Assembly: GCF_021560015.1 (NCBI RefSeq)
Contig: NZ_CP073588.1
Coordinates: forward strand, 2,170,001 to 2,234,000
Direction: 5' to 3'
DNA from: Shewanella vesiculosa
Lineage (GTDB): Bacteria; Pseudomonadota; Gammaproteobacteria; Enterobacterales; Shewanellaceae
Length of the DNA: 64,000 bases
Part shown: piece by piece, positions 10,979 to 17,864 of the stretch
Layout: every line of letters starts with the position of its first letter
How positions within the stretch are numbered: position 1 is the stretch's first letter
The notes under the pieces: generated by a model
What the model saw: the letters and a program-made list of their open reading frames with translations, nothing else
The model's database searches: none
Told to the model about the DNA's origin: nothing
Position numbers and translations under genes: made by a program

Positions 10979-11707
10979 ATGTCTGGCTACGTCAAGTACA
11001 AGAATGACAAAAAGTTTAAAAATTTAAACACACCGTTAAATTACAAGGGTGGAAAGGAACTAATTGAAAGGTTGATAGATCTTTTTGAGGTGCGAAGCAG
11101 AGTAGAATTAGGTGACTTAATCGGAGTCAGTTCTGCAACTCTTTCAACATGGACGACTCGTGAAACCACACCGCATGAATTGTTGATTCGCATTCATTTG
11201 TTAACCGGTTGGCCGATGGAATATTTGTGCTTTGGCACGGGTGACTTAACCAAATTAAAAGGTGATACCGACCAACACTTTTCCGAAAAAGCTAATAATG
11301 TGGCACCGCCAACACTCAGCTATGAGCGCGGTGTGTTACAGGTTTACACCATCGATAACGGCCATTTAGCACCATACGAAAAAATAGAAGCCACAGTTAA
11401 TTTATTGCAATACTGCAAAGTGCGCGGGAATGAAAACGACATAGTGGTAAAAGATGGTTGGGATTTGTTGTTTATTAATTCACGCGAAAATCAAGTTAAT
11501 CAAGGTCGATATTTATTTAAGGTTAACCAAACCCATCAGCTAGGCATGATGAAGTTATACCCTGATGGTAAAATCTATCTATTAGAGGAAGAAGAACGTT
11601 ATCTGGTAGATGAGACGGTAACTCAAATTGTGGGCAAAGTGGCAGCTACTTTAAAGCAAACCCCAATTAGCTTAATACGACCTAGAGGCTATAAGGCCAG
11701 AACGTAA
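10979..11707 (+). CDS. P2/186-like phage repressor CI
   Basis: A 242-residue lysogeny repressor. The helix-turn-helix lies in the first third (ELIERLIDLFEVRSRVELGDLIGVSSATLSTWTTRET), and LLTGWPMEYLCFGTGDL follows as in 186-type CI proteins. A longer C-terminal domain (about 120-240) would mediate oligomerisation. It has no LexA-like Ser-Lys cleavage motif that I can identify, consistent with a non-cleavable repressor controlled by an antirepressor. The gene is divergent from cox and immediately upstream of the FRG cargo operon, so that operon may be expressed from the lysogenic promoter. Confidence 0.85.
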   Translation: MSGYVKYKNDKKFKNLNTPLNYKGGKELIERLIDLFEVRSRVELGDLIGVSSATLSTWTTRETTPHELLIRIHLLTGWPMEYLCFGTGDLTKLKGDTDQHFSEKANNVAPPTLSYERGVLQVYTIDNGHLAPYEKIEATVNLLQYCKVRGNENDIVVKDGWDLLFINSRENQVNQGRYLFKVNQTHQLGMMKLYPDGKIYLLEEEERYLVDETVTQIVGKVAATLKQTPISLIRPRGYKART

Positions 11708-11735: not shown

Positions 11736-12689
11736 ATGGCCTCAGAGATAACAAATTTAGCTGATATTTTATCGCTTATATTTTCTGAATCTGATCCTGA
11801 AAAAAGTTATTGGTATAGAGGACATAGTAAAACCAGCTACCGATTACTCCCGTCAGTATTCAGGCCCACGGAAGCAGGAAAGTATTTTAATGAAGCAAAA
11901 CTAATAAGTGAGTTTTTGAGAATACACCCTGAAGCTAAAACTCAACATTCTTCAACTATAGAGTTGCTTACCTATGCGCAACATTATGGTTTACCAACTA
12001 GACTATTAGATTGGACAGAAAATTTATTAGTAGCATTATATTTTTGCTGCGTTGAAAATATTAACGAGAATGGTAGTTTATACACATTGCAGGTAGAAAG
12101 AGACAATAGCCATAACATTAATTTTTATGAAAAAATAGCCACATCATCATCTGTGAGCGAAGTTTGCAATAAAATTATAGAGTATTTAAACAATGCAAAC
12201 TCTAGAACAGATAAAACACTAAGAAATATAATAAAATTAAATGGTCACGATTTAAATTATTATTCTGAAACAGATGGTTTTGAAATTTTCTGTAATTTGA
12301 ATAAAATGGTTAGGGACAAAGAAAAATTTCTTATTGATTCTCCATACGATTACAACCCTTTATTGTATGGTGTTTGCACTTATACGCCACCAATTATTAA
12401 TCATCGGTTAAAAGCTCAAAAAGGATGTTTCACTATTCACGGTGGAAAAATCATATCTGGCAATGAAGTTATAAATGTATTAGATATAAAAGAATGCGTA
12501 GCGATGCATGAACATCGCAGTTCTAATTTTGTACAAATACTCAATAACAACTTTAATGAATACATTATTCCATCCTCTGCAAAAGGTAAGATCTTAAGTG
12601 AATTATCAAACTGCGGTATAAATAAAGCAAGTTTGTTTCCAGAATTAGAGCATCAAGTTAATTCACTCAAAGAAAAGTTTTTTGATTAG
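11736..12689 (+). CDS. FRG-domain protein (prophage cargo, candidate defence protein)
   Basis: A 317-residue soluble protein with the FRG domain: YWYRGHSKTSYRLLPSVFR (about residues 25-45) and YAQHYGLPTRLLDWTENLLVALYFC (about 85-108) are its hallmarks. FRG proteins are common in prophages and defence islands, but their biochemical activity is not settled. The ATG at 11736 has AAGGAAG five bases upstream. Codon use is AT-rich compared with the repressor before it, as expected for recently acquired cargo. It starts 28 bp after cI and leads two small membrane-protein genes, so a membrane-linked exclusion function is plausible but inferred. Confidence 0.85.
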   Translation: MASEITNLADILSLIFSESDPEKSYWYRGHSKTSYRLLPSVFRPTEAGKYFNEAKLISEFLRIHPEAKTQHSSTIELLTYAQHYGLPTRLLDWTENLLVALYFCCVENINENGSLYTLQVERDNSHNINFYEKIATSSSVSEVCNKIIEYLNNANSRTDKTLRNIIKLNGHDLNYYSETDGFEIFCNLNKMVRDKEKFLIDSPYDYNPLLYGVCTYTPPIINHRLKAQKGCFTIHGGKIISGNEVINVLDIKECVAMHEHRSSNFVQILNNNFNEYIIPSSAKGKILSELSNCGINKASLFPELEHQVNSLKEKFFD

Positions 12690-12706
12690 ATTTCAAGGAA
12701 GAAAAA

Positions 12707-13348
12707 ATGAATAAACAAGACTATGAAGATGAATTAGCTCGATTAAAAGCTAGCAACATTGATTCACCAGCACAAGCAAAAGCCCGAAAACTTATTAAGC
12801 CTGTTATGACAATCATTGCAGTCATATTTACAATACTGCTTATTGCCCTGATTGTTGATATCAGCAATGATCCAAAACCAGTCGAAACACCCATAGTTAA
12901 GCAGTCTTCACAAGATAAAGATGCATTCAATAAACTAGAAGCCGCTAAATGGGAAAAGGTCAGCAACCTTACTGACTGCCAACTAGCCTATAAAATTTAT
13001 AGCGACTACTCCCCTATCATGGCTGAGCTAATGGACTTCGCTGAAACAAAGTCATACTTTGCTAAACAAGAAGCTGTAAACTGGAAAGAGAACACAAAAC
13101 TAGACCAACGTTTAGAAGCCCTTAATAATATTTACCCCTCCACTTATAACGTAGATTATCCAAATGCCATCATTGCTCACGGAATGAACTTCGCCATAGG
13201 CCAATACTGGCGAGACATCTTCTTTCATGTCATCAATGAACGCGAAGCTAAACCAGCAGTAAGCGAACAAACACAGCTAATGCAAGATGACTTAAACGTC
13301 TTAAAGTCACAATGCCCAAACGAATTTGAAGGTTTAAGTAACCTATGA
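12707..13348 (+). CDS. Single-span membrane protein in the FRG operon
   Basis: A 213-residue protein with a charged cytoplasmic N-terminus, one membrane segment at about residues 34-53 (MTIIAVIFTILLIALIVDI), and a C-terminal region containing cysteines (DCQLAYKIYSDYSP, SQCPNEFEGL) that could face the periplasm. No named family is recognised. An AAGGAAG ribosome site precedes the ATG. It lies 17 bp after the FRG gene and overlaps the next gene as ATGA, so the three genes form one operon. Confidence 0.7.
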   Translation: MNKQDYEDELARLKASNIDSPAQAKARKLIKPVMTIIAVIFTILLIALIVDISNDPKPVETPIVKQSSQDKDAFNKLEAAKWEKVSNLTDCQLAYKIYSDYSPIMAELMDFAETKSYFAKQEAVNWKENTKLDQRLEALNNIYPSTYNVDYPNAIIAHGMNFAIGQYWRDIFFHVINEREAKPAVSEQTQLMQDDLNVLKSQCPNEFEGLSNL

Positions 13349-13929
13349 GCATAGAAACACTATTTTCATCTAACATAATTGTTCCGATTATCGTCGCATT
13401 TATCGGTTTTTTAATTGCAGTGACAACGGCGGTTATTGCAAAAGAGCAAAAGATATCTGAATTTAGGCAAAAATGGATTGATGAATTAAGGAATGATATC
13501 GCAAACTCACTTCGATATGCTTTTGACTGTATGTATGAATCTAGCAATCATATAACCGACGAGAGTATAGAGCGTTATAACAGTTCATTTAGTAAATTCG
13601 AATTCCATTTAATACTTATAAAATTAAGGCTTAATCCTATAAAAGATGAACAGTTTATATTACTAATTAATAATACTCTTGAACTAGTAAGTGAACTAAA
13701 TCATACAAATATTGAAATAAATTTCAAAAAAGTAACAGAATCAACAAAGCTATTTGAAAAACATTCACATGCAATAATAAAAAGAGAATGGGAAATAACA
13801 AAAAAAGGAGAAAAACGTTTTATTCTTTTTGTAACCGTGGGTGAGTTTTTCGGAGGTGCATTTATCACTGCTTTTTTTGTGCTGCTCTATTTAGCAAAAT
13901 TCCCTGAATACTTCCCTGGTATTAATTAG
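13345..13929 (+). CDS. Two-span membrane protein in the FRG operon
   Basis: A 194-residue protein with membrane segments at both ends: about residues 10-32 (NIIVPIIVAFIGFLIAVTTAVI) and about 158-180 (FILFVTVGEFFGGAFITAFFVLLYL). Between them is a helical cytoplasmic domain starting KEQKISEFRQKWIDELRNDI. Similar N-terminal membrane plus QKWI-helix proteins occur in accessory regions, but I cannot assign a function. Translation is coupled to the preceding gene by a 4-bp overlap. The topology suggests a membrane effector or anchor for the FRG protein. Confidence 0.7.
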   Translation: MSIETLFSSNIIVPIIVAFIGFLIAVTTAVIAKEQKISEFRQKWIDELRNDIANSLRYAFDCMYESSNHITDESIERYNSSFSKFEFHLILIKLRLNPIKDEQFILLINNTLELVSELNHTNIEINFKKVTESTKLFEKHSHAIIKREWEITKKGEKRFILFVTVGEFFGGAFITAFFVLLYLAKFPEYFPGIN

Positions 13930-13978: not shown

Positions 13979-14458
13979 TTAGGCTTTTAATGGGGGAATA
14001 GGGGTTGCTGCGGCAATAAGTTCGCCCCAGCTATTTGGGACACGGTTACCCTCAAGCATTTTTTCAAATACATAATAAACATCTGTTTTACTCCCAGCCT
14101 TGCGCTGAGTCGTTTCATCGTTTATCCATGCATAGATAATGGCTTTTGGGGCATCTGTTTTAAATTGAAAGAATAACCGATATCTAGTTGGCAATGATTT
14201 TTTCTTGATGCGACGCCAAGATGTGTATTTTTTACCGAGAGTTTTACCTAACCTAAAATCTGGGTGATTAGGCTCAGCTGGTACATTAGTAAAAATATTA
14301 GTTTGAATTGCTTCGAAGAGTTTATAAGTTGGATGGTGAAAAAATTCGTCTGGATCTTTGATTGCTAAGGCTTCAGCTAATTCAGTTATGCGGGTCAGTT
14401 CGGCAGTAAAAATATCAAGCGCATGAAGTTCGTAGCCATTTTTTATAATTACTTCCAT
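13979..14458 (-). CDS. YhaV-family toxin (ribonuclease)
   Basis: A 159-residue toxin close in length and sequence to YhaV, the E. coli mRNA/rRNA-cleaving toxin. It shows HPTYKLFEAIQTNIFTNVPAEPNHPDFRLGKTLG, YRLFFQF, IIYAWINDETTQRKAG and YYVFEKMLEGNRVPNSW, all family signatures. It follows a short partner gene by 11 bp. In E. coli the partner is the AbrB-fold antitoxin PrlF, but the partner here is unrelated in sequence. It lies between the FRG operon and the integrase, as addiction or exclusion cargo. Confidence 0.88.
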   Translation of the reverse strand: MEVIIKNGYELHALDIFTAELTRITELAEALAIKDPDEFFHHPTYKLFEAIQTNIFTNVPAEPNHPDFRLGKTLGKKYTSWRRIKKKSLPTRYRLFFQFKTDAPKAIIYAWINDETTQRKAGSKTDVYYVFEKMLEGNRVPNSWGELIAAATPIPPLKA

Positions 14459-14469
14459 GTATAAAACGA

Positions 14470-14664
14470 CTACCCTTCTAGGATAACAGAGCGTGCTCTA
14501 GCAAGATCTGCTTTTGCTTTTAAAGCGTCCATTCTTGATAATAATGACATAGGTAAAGGTTTAACTTTCCCGTCAATTTTTGTTTCGTTATCAAGTAATT
14601 CCACAAATTTAGATTCAACTTTTGCTTCATTACTTGCCGTTGCAAAAGAAAATACATTTGTCAT
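14470..14664 (-). CDS. Probable antitoxin to YhaV, not PrlF-like
   Basis: A 64-residue protein (start ATG 14664, with TAGGTG about eight bases upstream) ending KAKADLARARSVILEG. It has no recognisable AbrB swapped-hairpin pattern. The sequence looks like a flexible N-terminus (NVFSFATASNEAKVESKF) followed by one long C-terminal helix. Position, order and 11-bp spacing before the YhaV toxin make it the antitoxin. Three 10-bp tandem repeats lie just upstream. The function is inferred from context. Confidence 0.65.
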   Translation of the reverse strand: MTNVFSFATASNEAKVESKFVELLDNETKIDGKVKPLPMSLLSRMDALKAKADLARARSVILEG

Positions 14665-14689
14665 AATGTGCACCTACTTAAGATTGTTT

Positions 14690-14820: not shown

Positions 14821-15849
14821 GTGGCAGTAAGAAACACTAAAGACGGTAGCGACAAACCTTGGCTTTGCGAGTGCTATCCTAATGGGCGTGATGGTAAACG
14901 CATTCGCAAAAAGTTTGCTACTAAAGGCGAAGCGACTGCGTTTGAACTTTATACCATGAAAAAGGTGGACGAAAAGCCGTGGCTAGGTGAAAAGGTCGAT
15001 AATCGTAAGTTATCGGAACTGATCAAACGCTGGTATGACTTGCATGGCCAACAACTGGCACAACCTGAAACACGTTTACGAAAATTACAGTTAACCTGCG
15101 ATGGAATGAACGACCCAGTTGCCAGCAAAATAACCGTTAACGATTTTGCTAATTACCGCCAAATGCGACTTGATGGTGAAATAGAAGATTTTCAAGGTAA
15201 AAAGACCAAGGTTAAACCGAATACAATTAACCACGAACACGCCTATTTGAACGCGGTGTTTTCGGAGTTAAAGCGTTTAGGTGAATGGACTCACCCTAAC
15301 CCGCTTGAGGGTTTACCTCAGTTCAAAATTGAAGATACTGAACTGGCCTACCTTTACCCAGAAGAAATACCCATAGTATTGGACGAATGCCGCAATGCAG
15401 AATATGAACACCTGGTAACAATAGTAATGGTGTGTTTGGCAACCGGCTGCCGATGGTCAGAAGCTGAAAACCTCAAAGGCAGTCAAATAGCGCATAACCG
15501 CATTACCTTTGTAAAAACCAAAGGTAAGAAAAACCGGACAGTACCAATAGCGCAAGAACTGGCAAACATGCTGCCAAGAGTCCGCGGCCCATTATTCAGA
15601 CCGTGCCGCAGATCATTTGAACGTGCAATAAAACGAACCGGTTTAATATTCCCAGAAGGCCAAATGACCCACATTTTACGCCACACATTCGCCAGCCATT
15701 TTATGATGAACGGTGGCAATATTTTGGTACTTAAACAAGTATTAGGTCATTCAGATATTAAAGACACAATGCGCTACGCCCACTTCGCACCAGATCACTT
15801 AGACGATGCGATAACTAAAAACCCGATAGCAGGATTACTAAATAAATAA
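14821..15849 (+). CDS. int: P2-like tyrosine-recombinase integrase
   Basis: A 342-residue integrase with a short N-terminal arm-binding domain, a core-binding domain (about 60-170) and a catalytic domain. The catalytic residues are visible: Arg in CLATGCRWSEAENL, HILRHTF (His-x-x-Arg), His in VLGHSD and the nucleophile Tyr in MRYAHF. The start is GTG at 14821. It points away from the phage body toward the tmRNA 3' fragment, the P2 arrangement in which attP follows int. A membrane-protein gene lies between int and that candidate site. Confidence 0.93.
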   Translation: MAVRNTKDGSDKPWLCECYPNGRDGKRIRKKFATKGEATAFELYTMKKVDEKPWLGEKVDNRKLSELIKRWYDLHGQQLAQPETRLRKLQLTCDGMNDPVASKITVNDFANYRQMRLDGEIEDFQGKKTKVKPNTINHEHAYLNAVFSELKRLGEWTHPNPLEGLPQFKIEDTELAYLYPEEIPIVLDECRNAEYEHLVTIVMVCLATGCRWSEAENLKGSQIAHNRITFVKTKGKKNRTVPIAQELANMLPRVRGPLFRPCRRSFERAIKRTGLIFPEGQMTHILRHTFASHFMMNGGNILVLKQVLGHSDIKDTMRYAHFAPDHLDDAITKNPIAGLLNK

Positions 15850-15894: not shown

Positions 15895-15990
15895 TTATCG
15901 TTTTACATCAAAGATATAGAAAATGTAGTATGATATTAATCAATAACTTAACGGCCTACTTTAGCTGGCGAGCCGTTGAAAGGCAGTTAT
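15895..15990 (+). repeat. Repeat copy A: conserved leader with attC-like hairpin
   Basis: The first 56 bases (15895-15950) match 17765-17820 with five mismatches. They are followed by a hairpin: ATAAC (15943-15947) then TTAACGGC, and GCCGTTGA then, after a spacer, GTTAT (15986-15990). Nested ATAAC/GTTAT outer arms and TTAACGGC/GCCGTTGA inner arms resemble the R and L boxes of an integron attC site. It lies directly upstream of the 16010 gene. The alternative is a shared promoter/leader. Confidence 0.6.
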
Positions 15991-16009
15991 ATTCGACTTG
16001 GTAATTATA

Positions 16010-16987
16010 ATGAATGATGATAAAAAAATGGGAATATTTATTTCCTTTAGTTTTCCTTTATGTCTAGGCCTAATTTTAGGACTTATTATATTCAATCCAT
16101 CAGAAGGCTTTATTATCTGGTGGAAAACCATCGATTGGAACGCTCAAAGTGTCGCAAATGTAGGTGCATGGGTTGCAGGTATTGCAACGTCCTTAGCGGC
16201 TTTAGCAACAGCATCCGCTGCTCGTTCATCATCAAAAGCAGCCGATGCAGCCACACAAGCAGCTAATCAATGGAAAGAACATGCATCATATGAAAAGTAT
16301 ATTGATGTTGGGGTTAAAGCTAGAATTAAACTTAGATGGCTAGAAGCACATTTACAATGTATGTGTGAAAAAGAATTTCAAGTATTTTTTGACAATGAGT
16401 CAGTGATTGCCGGCGACTACACACCAAACAGTGTAAATTCATTTTTAATTTGTTTGGATAGTAACTCTGTTTATGAAGGTTTAGAGGCCTATGATCATTT
16501 TAAGAAATATAAAAAGGTATTCAAATATCAATCTGATGCTATAAATAATTTATACCCAGAAATATTTAACCTTATTGAAGAAACATTTGAGTTAAGTAAA
16601 AATCATATTGGACTATCAGAGACTGAAAAAAATGTAATTCATAAAACAATAGAAAAACTGATCACTCAGATTCGTATAATAGGGGGGTTATATGAAAATG
16701 TCATTGAAAAAAAACATAGTAATAATAGTAAAAAAATTGACATAGACAGTTGCTTAAATTGTATAGACTCAAGTCGTCACTATTATTTTTCCACACTATC
16801 TAATTTGAAACTAATCTCAGGTTATATCGACAACTTAGTTATTGATTCAGATGTGGTAAGTTGGGAGAAGACCAAAAAAAATCATATTTTAGAACAACAA
16901 GATATTCATCGGATAATTACAAAAGATAAAGGAGGGTTTAACGAGAATATAATAACTTATCTAAATGATAAGTTTGATAATAAGTAA
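16010..16987 (+). CDS. Membrane protein of unknown function, prophage-end cargo
   Basis: A 325-residue protein. Residues about 6-26 (FISFSFPLCLGLILGLIIF) are one membrane span. The Ala/Ser-rich stretch at about 48-72 (VAGIATSLAALATASAARSSS) may be a second span or a helix along the membrane. The rest is a long helical soluble domain with scattered cysteines. The ATG at 16010 was chosen over a TTG at 15998; the ribosome site is weak. The family is not recognised. AT-rich composition and a place between int and the tmRNA fragment make it accessory cargo. Its leader duplicates that of the DUF6602-type gene. Confidence 0.65.
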   Translation: MNDDKKMGIFISFSFPLCLGLILGLIIFNPSEGFIIWWKTIDWNAQSVANVGAWVAGIATSLAALATASAARSSSKAADAATQAANQWKEHASYEKYIDVGVKARIKLRWLEAHLQCMCEKEFQVFFDNESVIAGDYTPNSVNSFLICLDSNSVYEGLEAYDHFKKYKKVFKYQSDAINNLYPEIFNLIEETFELSKNHIGLSETEKNVIHKTIEKLITQIRIIGGLYENVIEKKHSNNSKKIDIDSCLNCIDSSRHYYFSTLSNLKLISGYIDNLVIDSDVVSWEKTKKNHILEQQDIHRIITKDKGGFNENIITYLNDKFDNK

Positions 16988-17270: not shown

Positions 17271-17318
17271 AGGATGTAGGCTTTCTGGACGCGGGTTCAA
17301 GTCCCGCCGCCTCCACCA
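17271..17318 (+). other. 3' end of tmRNA (ssrA), probable prophage attachment site
   Basis: The sequence GGATGTAGG, then GGACGCGGGTTCAAGTCCCG and CCTCCACCA, matches the 3' end of tmRNA genes, including the T-arm and encoded CCA. The 5' tRNA-like half and the tag-peptide region are not in the window. An ssrA 3' fragment on the integrase side of a prophage is the classic remnant left when a phage integrates into ssrA and restores the gene at its other end. A matching terminator follows. Confidence 0.8.
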
Positions 17319-17329
17319 ATTAAAACAAA

Positions 17330-17360
17330 GGGTTAGCCGAAAGGCTAACCCTTTTTCTTT
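17330..17360 (+). terminator. Rho-independent terminator after the tmRNA fragment
   Basis: GGGTTAGCC and GGCTAACCC form a perfect 9-bp stem with a GAAA tetraloop, followed by TTTTTCTTT. It is probably the native ssrA terminator, which supports 17271-17318 being the original chromosomal 3' end. Confidence 0.88.
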
Positions 17361-17764
17361 GCCTAATGTCCACAAATTGCCCACACAGCTTCAAATGTTC
17401 TACTCATAATTAATCACATTGTTATGATGAGCTAACACTTAGATACCCCAAAGTTACTTAGAACCAAAACTCTATTTAACACTGCTAGCCTTCGTTTTCC
17501 ATACAAATTCAATTGATAATACTCTTTTACAGAGACCATTTTTTCCGGCTAGATTACATAAATCTAATAAACTGGTTTTATATACATTTATAATACGTTT
17601 CGGCTTAATTTATATCTAACAACCCAACAAGTAAGTCTAAAGTAGTAATTACCAATTATGAAATTGAAACTGACTGACTGATATTGTATTAAAAAAAATT
17701 ACCTGATAATTTTGTGAACACTATATTTTAGCTATCTCGGTTTGTTTTGGGATTTGCGAAAAAC
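17361..17764. other. Gene-free AT-rich stretch after the tmRNA fragment
   Basis: No ORF with a credible start, no tRNA fold and no strong hairpin seen. It separates the ssrA 3' end from repeat copy B. Confidence 0.4.
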
Positions 17765-17864
17765 TTATCGTTTTACATCAACGACATAGAAGATTTAGGA
17801 TGATATTAATCAATAACTTAAGCGGCCGGCTTTATTTGGCTAGCCGTTAAACAAGCCGTTACGT
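17765..17864 (+). repeat. Repeat copy B: conserved leader with attC-like hairpin
   Basis: Second copy of the 56-bp leader (17765-17820), followed by ATAAC (17813-17817), TTAAGCGGC, a loop, GCCGTTAA (17843-17850), a spacer and GTTACGT (17858-17864). The left inner arm has one extra G relative to the right arm, like the extrahelical G of attC sites. It ends 15 bp before the DUF6602-type start codon. Confidence 0.6.

Follow-up and report, generated by a model that had tools for sequence, protein, structure and literature searches.

Directly behind the CI repressor gene of a prophage in Shewanella vesiculosa lie three genes which are very likely phage-exclusion cargo. The second of them, g2, was previously without identity and can now be described as a membrane-anchored relative of Glo. 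Our preferred explanation, to which we give a probability of roughly 45%, is that the Glo-like g2, a candidate NAD-consuming FRG-domain protein and an auxiliary protein, g3, are exclusion cargo expressed during lysogeny, in which g2 licenses the FRG protein. The exclusion role is supported by the position of the genes between cI and int, where phage K139 carries glo, by the Glo-family domain of g2 and by the PDC-S15 class of the FRG protein, PDC denoting a PADLOC defence candidate. The first-pass annotation of this DNA had proposed a candidate phage-exclusion system; its exclusion part is supported, but the idea of a single three-gene system, as stated there, is not.

The window analysed here is a stretch of 64,000 nucleotides, positions 2170001-2234000 of the chromosome in the 4.78-Mb S. 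vesiculosa genome (one contig). A P2-related, K139-type prophage fills its left end up to position 17368, and the tmRNA gene (2150788-2151143) overlaps at its 3' end with the copy of attR at the other prophage end (chromosome 2151096-2151193); judging from these sequences, the prophage is inserted at the tmRNA gene. The rep, CII and Cox genes run leftward, divergent from CI. Rightward from CI, the order is FRG, g2, g3, a YhaV-type toxin with a small partner (opposite strand) and the integrase:

10979..11707, + strand: CI repressor (Pfam Phage_CI_repr PF07022, 4.2e-17), first gene of the presumed lysogenic operon
11736..12689, + strand: FRG-domain protein, 317 aa (Pfam FRG PF08867, 1.9e-23; PADLOC PDC-S15, 8.1e-50)
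12707..13348, + strand: g2, 213 aa, one span by hydropathy, C-terminal Glo-family domain
13345..13929, + strand: g3, 194 aa, two spans by hydropathy, no Pfam match
13979..14458, - strand: YhaV-type toxin within the cI-int slot (Pfam Toxin_YhaV, 3.8e-40)
14470..14673, - strand: small gene beside yhaV, probable antitoxin by position only (PHROG 18497, unknown function, 8.7e-16)
14821..15849, + strand: integrase, far border of the slot (Pfam Int_N, 1.5e-35; Phage_integrase, 3.6e-21)
17271..17368, no strand: attR, 98-bp exact copy of chromosome 2151096-2151193

A gap of 28 bp separates the end of CI (11707) from the ATG of FRG, and g2 and g3 share a 4-bp ATGA overlap (13345-13348). No span is predicted by hydropathy in the FRG protein, one in g2 (residues 32-50) and two in g3 (11-29 and 163-181). 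The first-pass annotation was accurate in these respects, i.e. in the three reading frames with their coordinates and overlap, in the succession of an FRG protein, a one-span and a two-span membrane protein, and in placing them directly downstream of CI in a P2-like prophage. It had also called the genes AT-rich relative to the phage genes, which is true of FRG (GC 0.309, GC3 0.236) and g3 (0.299, 0.226) but hardly of g2 (0.386, 0.355), given that CI has a GC content of 0.398, int 0.433 and rep 0.447. Promoter and terminator scans gave no enrichment over shuffled sequence.

There are a few further features around the integrase gene. A 57-nt repeat is found behind int within the prophage (window 15895-15951) and again beyond attR (17765-17821), the copies being 91% alike. 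A 151-bp query around this repeat finds eight sites in the genome, three of which (1489406-1500529) lie around the genome's second g3 relative (1492602-1493147). A membrane protein of unknown family is encoded between int and attR (window 15998-16987). Directly behind int, the Shewanella prophages L049, L050, L063, L064 and L101 have different membrane proteins, and L100 carries a KAP NTPase (PADLOC PDC-S20, 1.2e-82).

The slot between cI and int was surveyed through the CII gene, which has a match in 19 of 195 related genomes, the IMG/VR loci being the best 80 of 270. This gave 38 candidate Shewanella-type loci, 26 of them with both CI and int, and 21 slots were left once near-identical CII genes had been removed; the loci omitted lack int (8), CI (3) or both (1). 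A second count of 24 adds the three slots lacking CI to the 21 intact ones. Reading frames were called mechanically and the slot labels used for the co-occurrence statistics were assigned by hand. All three genes are present in three of the 21 distinct intact slots (window, L102/L203 and L100/L210), FRG with g2 in one, FRG alone in one, g2 with g3 in one, g2 alone in one, g3 without FRG or g2 in one and none of the three in 13, so that FRG is present in five, g2 in six and g3 in five. The slots also carry BRCT, WYL-like, zinc-ribbon and bacterial-PH proteins as well as genes without a match, some of the labels (L195, L198) being based on Pfam scores below the cut-off, and two slots contain no gene of at least 60 codons. 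With such variable cargo in 21 distinct intact slots, the region belongs to the cI-int hotspot of K139-type phages. The integrase and CI of the window are 44% and 24% identical to their K139 counterparts, and among eight Shewanella-type BRCT slot proteins compared with that of K139, seven are 39.6-42.0% identical and one is 27.7% identical.

Several slot proteins (L195 1484-2005, L205 1-510, L208 2072-2614, L198 7540-8505 and L199 2811-3740) share one plan, in which a zinc-ribbon or WYL-like module in the cytosol, in some cases scoring below cut-off, is followed by one span and a C-terminal outside part; by eye, the cytosolic modules and the outside parts look exchangeable. A distant K139-type slot (L228 1241-4746) encodes a three-span protein and a protein of 661 aa that combines repeats with FRG, as its PADLOC matches to TPR and PDC-S15 show.

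The order CI-FRG-g2-g3-int is repeated in two other IMG/VR prophages, L102 and L100, at 39-46% protein identity, L100 having one extra gene between CI and FRG. Genome G109 has BRCT-FRG on one contig and the FRG end, g2, g3 and int on another, with the FRG pieces at two contig ends; its CII was not found and its int is a fragment. All three genes are present in these three prophages and the window, i.e. in four, and this recurrence in the same order puts the trio beyond chance. The conservation of the trio as a unit, which that annotation had proposed to check, does not hold: an obligate FRG-g2-g3 unit was rejected, as three of the 21 slots hold all three genes and each gene is also found without the others.

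The tightest pair is FRG-g2. The two genes are adjacent, FRG before g2, in five prophages (window, L063, L100, L102 and G109), with gaps of 14-29 bp. Among the 21 slots, g2 is found in four of the five that have FRG (Fisher p 0.011; 0.0027 in 24 slots), g2 and g3 share four slots (p 0.011; 0.021 in 24 slots) and FRG and g3 share three (p 0.063; 0.069 in 24 slots), and since the prophages are related these values are descriptive, not proof. L064 has FRG on its own between CI and int, with neither g2 nor g3, and relatives of g2 occur without FRG in L075, L076 and L077, so each of the two is independent of the presence of the other.

The g2 protein begins with a short cytosolic tail, which is followed by the span and by a Glo-family domain (residues about 89-205) with two invariant cysteines. 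The first-pass annotation saw no structural or replication role in the phage to assign to the genes; this needs correcting for g2, whose C-terminal domain, judged by profile comparison, belongs to a family with a phage-exclusion member. The profile of g2 aligns with a two-sequence Glo profile over 112 columns (pairwise hhalign 92.4%, E 5e-7); the homology covers the whole Glo domain, both cysteines are kept, and 10 out of 10 sequences conserve D, C, A, W and the last C. A bridge is provided by a protein of Vibrio phage vB_ValM-yong1, encoded in the same slot: it aligns with Glo through its C-terminal domain (27%, E 8e-10), and the protein scores 36.5 bits against the g2 profile, where the best of 2000 shuffles (1818 scored) reaches 7.0. 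The direct match of Glo to the g2 profile is weak, as its 8.4 bits are reached by two plain and two cysteine-keeping shuffles out of 2000 each (1895 and 1891 scored, respectively) and by two reading frames outside the g2 family (1998 scored).

As to the topology, the part before the span has 7 basic and 5 acidic residues, and the 30 residues after it include 4 basic and 6 acidic ones. Because of this charge pattern the Glo domain of g2 is predicted to lie outside the cytosol, i.e. in the periplasm. One relative of g2 (L076, genome G021) is made up of the Glo-family domain behind a start which by eye resembles a signal peptide. The cytosolic tail is of a conserved DSPAQAKAR type in all five FRG-linked g2 proteins and is missing in the three relatives without FRG. 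It is not FRG-specific, because a similar segment (20.7 bits) is present in L198, which has no FRG. L198, matched at the E 1e-3 threshold, was rejected as a carrier of g2: its membrane protein is weakly WYL-like (with a Pfam E of 0.0049, below cut-off) and resembles g2 around the span and in the first residues beyond. The match of g2 to a Wzz-like fold, likewise below cut-off at E 0.0027, was taken as chance.

The occurrence of g2 is narrow. It is present in 7 of 129 genomes of the genus (one a fragment), in 1 of 369 genomes of the class, namely that of the window itself, at three loci in viral contigs and at two in genome contigs, apparently those of G109 and G027, which means that among the sets searched it is restricted to Shewanella-type genomes and prophages. 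In G060 the g2-like match is short. A tblastn search with g2 found no match among annotated phages and plasmids even though the phages searched include the one with the yong1 relative, so the detection of g2 relatives needs a profile. Glo itself had no match in 321 genomes of the class, a negative that carries no weight. A sequence search of solved structures with all three proteins returned chance-level matches alone (E 0.33-0.69).

The FRG protein is a clear member of its family (Pfam score 83.6 bits against a curated cut-off of 25; for PDC-S15, at 8.1e-50, no cut-off is given). Ten residues are invariant in an alignment of 70 sequences (R28, G29, Q82, H83, T88, D92, R224, Q228, F232 and L290), and we point to R28, H83, R224 and Q228 as candidates for NAD binding and turnover. 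An AF2 model built from 70 aligned sequences out of 74 listed has a pLDDT of 91.5 and a pTM of 0.88; an earlier one, based on just 9 sequences, reached a poor pLDDT of 53.2 and its fold search was not used. Among the 12 best of 20 Foldseek matches to the good model, 11 belong to ADP-ribosyltransferase entries (toxin domains, rifampin transferase and pierisin), classified as whole entries by title or by the activity of the named toxin. The matches have E-values from 0.22 to 6.1, none at or below 0.001, and TM-scores to the target of at most 0.34, and the rest of the list is unrelated. The model suggests that the protein likely has an ADP-ribosyltransferase fold, which makes it a candidate NAD-consuming effector. 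A passage in PMC9503650 places Frg in the ART superfamily and states that it might be an NADase.

In other phages the surroundings of FRG genes are different. We kept 80 of 113 phage FRG loci and judged the neighbourhoods by eye; trio carriers apart, no consistent membrane partner was seen among them, and many of the FRG proteins exceed 400 aa in length or lack an evident partner on the same strand. In Escherichia phages (L191 320-1684, L192 3485-4819 and L193 2003-3373) FRG is fused behind an unknown N-terminal part of about 170-200 aa; the fusion gene of Peduovirus P22H1 lies three genes from the replication gene. No paper testing an FRG protein in phage defence was found among the titles and beginnings of abstracts by which the literature was judged, or in the passages of PMC9503650.

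The two spans of g3 flank a region predicted to be cytosolic, and the motifs KEQKxSEFRQxWI and LKxEWExVKxGE adjoin the membrane. A match to an RT-associated domain (E 0.021) was taken as chance. Relatives are widespread in other phages and were found in 14 of 195 genomes; 86 distinct proteins of the family were viewed in context by eye, some of them with BRCT or bSEFIR neighbours. The window g3 has its closest relatives in L199 (52%, beside a weakly WYL-like gene) and L049 (51%, beside a BRCT gene), the trio members being 39-43% identical, and by these sequence relationships g3 shuffles independently of FRG and g2. In a defence island (L053 3062-10781) a g3 relative comes after OloA and OloB, 4 bp behind the latter, and is followed by GajA and GajB. 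In L101 (4167-7461) the order is BRCT-bSEFIR-g3-int, without g2, and bSEFIR (PADLOC 2.4e-75; Pfam TIR_2 4e-19) lies between the BRCT gene and g3, in a position taken in G109 by FRG and g2.

We propose that CI, FRG, g2 and g3 would be co-transcribed in the lysogen, and that the Glo domain of g2 would meet an incoming phage at the inner membrane, where it might block or report DNA entry. The adjacency of FRG and g2 in the same order in five prophages is the reason for proposing that g2 licenses the cytosolic FRG enzyme, which, once licensed, would consume NAD or transfer ADP-ribose from it, so that phage growth stops. In this scheme g3 would be an auxiliary, independently moving two-span module that is not required. 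That FRG and g2 act jointly at all is an inference to which we give slightly less than even odds. The main rival is that the slot is merely a landing place, where single-gene functions are stacked on a shared lysogenic promoter, g2 excluding phages as Glo does, FRG being a stand-alone defence protein and g3 doing something else. This is a serious contender, although we do not favour it: each of the three genes is found without the others, the closest relatives of the window g3 have other partners and are not trio members, the GC content of g2 is unlike that of its neighbours, and the often long or apparently partnerless FRG proteins of other phages (judged by eye) fit it. It does not lead one to expect the FRG-g2 adjacency in five prophages, above what the slot frequencies predict, or a g2 tail that tracks FRG linkage in all eight aligned g2 proteins.

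The joint action of FRG and g2 might also take a more specific form, which we consider rather unlikely. Here the periplasmic Glo domain would sense the DNA-ejection apparatus and trigger the NAD-consuming FRG protein through the cytosolic tail, as a transmembrane sensor-effector pair, and the cI-int slot would swap effectors (FRG, bSEFIR, WYL-like, zinc-ribbon) behind periplasmic domains. If true, an exclusion protein that was passive would have become what sets off an abortive response. An arrangement in which FRG kills the cell and g2 and/or g3 silence it, stabilising the prophage like a toxin-antitoxin locus, seems improbable to us. The overlapping and closely spaced genes would suit it, as would the second toxin-antitoxin pair, of YhaV type, in the same slot. 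Against it, FRG stands by itself in L064, with no adjoining g2 or g3, and we know of no antitoxin of the Glo type. Least probable of all is a service to the host or the prophage unrelated to other phages, e.g. in envelope physiology or the response to stress. The cargo genes of lysogens can serve such ends, but this slot is one in which defence genes are found, such as bSEFIR in L101 and glo in K139, the FRG protein falls in a PADLOC candidate class and a relative of g3 sits between OloAB and GajAB.

It is instructive to compare the locus with known systems, since the slot, FRG and Glo have all been described before. In the annotation of K139 the slot consists of cI, a BRCT gene (orf2), glo and int, the operon is transcribed from the lysogenic promoter PL, and glo is given as 'periplasmic protein; involved in phage exclusion'; a passage in PMC4870250 calls it an immunity gene of the K139 family. 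The C-terminal domain of g2 is in the same family as Glo and its gene in the same slot. Differences are that K139 Glo has 137 aa and a secreted-like start, whereas g2 is anchored by a span, has a cytosolic tail and lies behind an FRG gene, and that K139 has a BRCT gene where the window has FRG. According to PMC9122126, the cI-int place of K139/PhiO18P-like, P2-related phages is an antiviral hotspot prevalent in Vibrionaceae. The window has the same borders and variable cargo including known defence genes, but it is a Shewanella case, and the main text of PMC9122126 contains neither 'Shewanella' nor 'FRG'; the hotspot is thereby extended to Shewanella. Our literature searches turned up no earlier report of a membrane-anchored Glo-like protein paired with FRG, or of an exchange of FRG and bSEFIR beside g3.

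The FRG protein resembles other FRG-domain proteins (PF08867, PDC-S15) in a match over the protein and in shared invariant residues, and differs from other phage FRG loci in being paired with a Glo-like membrane protein, which places it beside a family that has a phage-exclusion member. In L101 the place of FRG between the BRCT gene and g3 is occupied by bSEFIR, and so by an NADase class, SEFIR being named as NAD-cleaving in a passage of PMC12774641 and as NAD-depleting in one of PMC11559045. The two are nevertheless different in that bSEFIR has a TIR-related domain and L101 contains no g2. The comparison raises the question whether a membrane exclusion protein can control an NAD-consuming enzyme.
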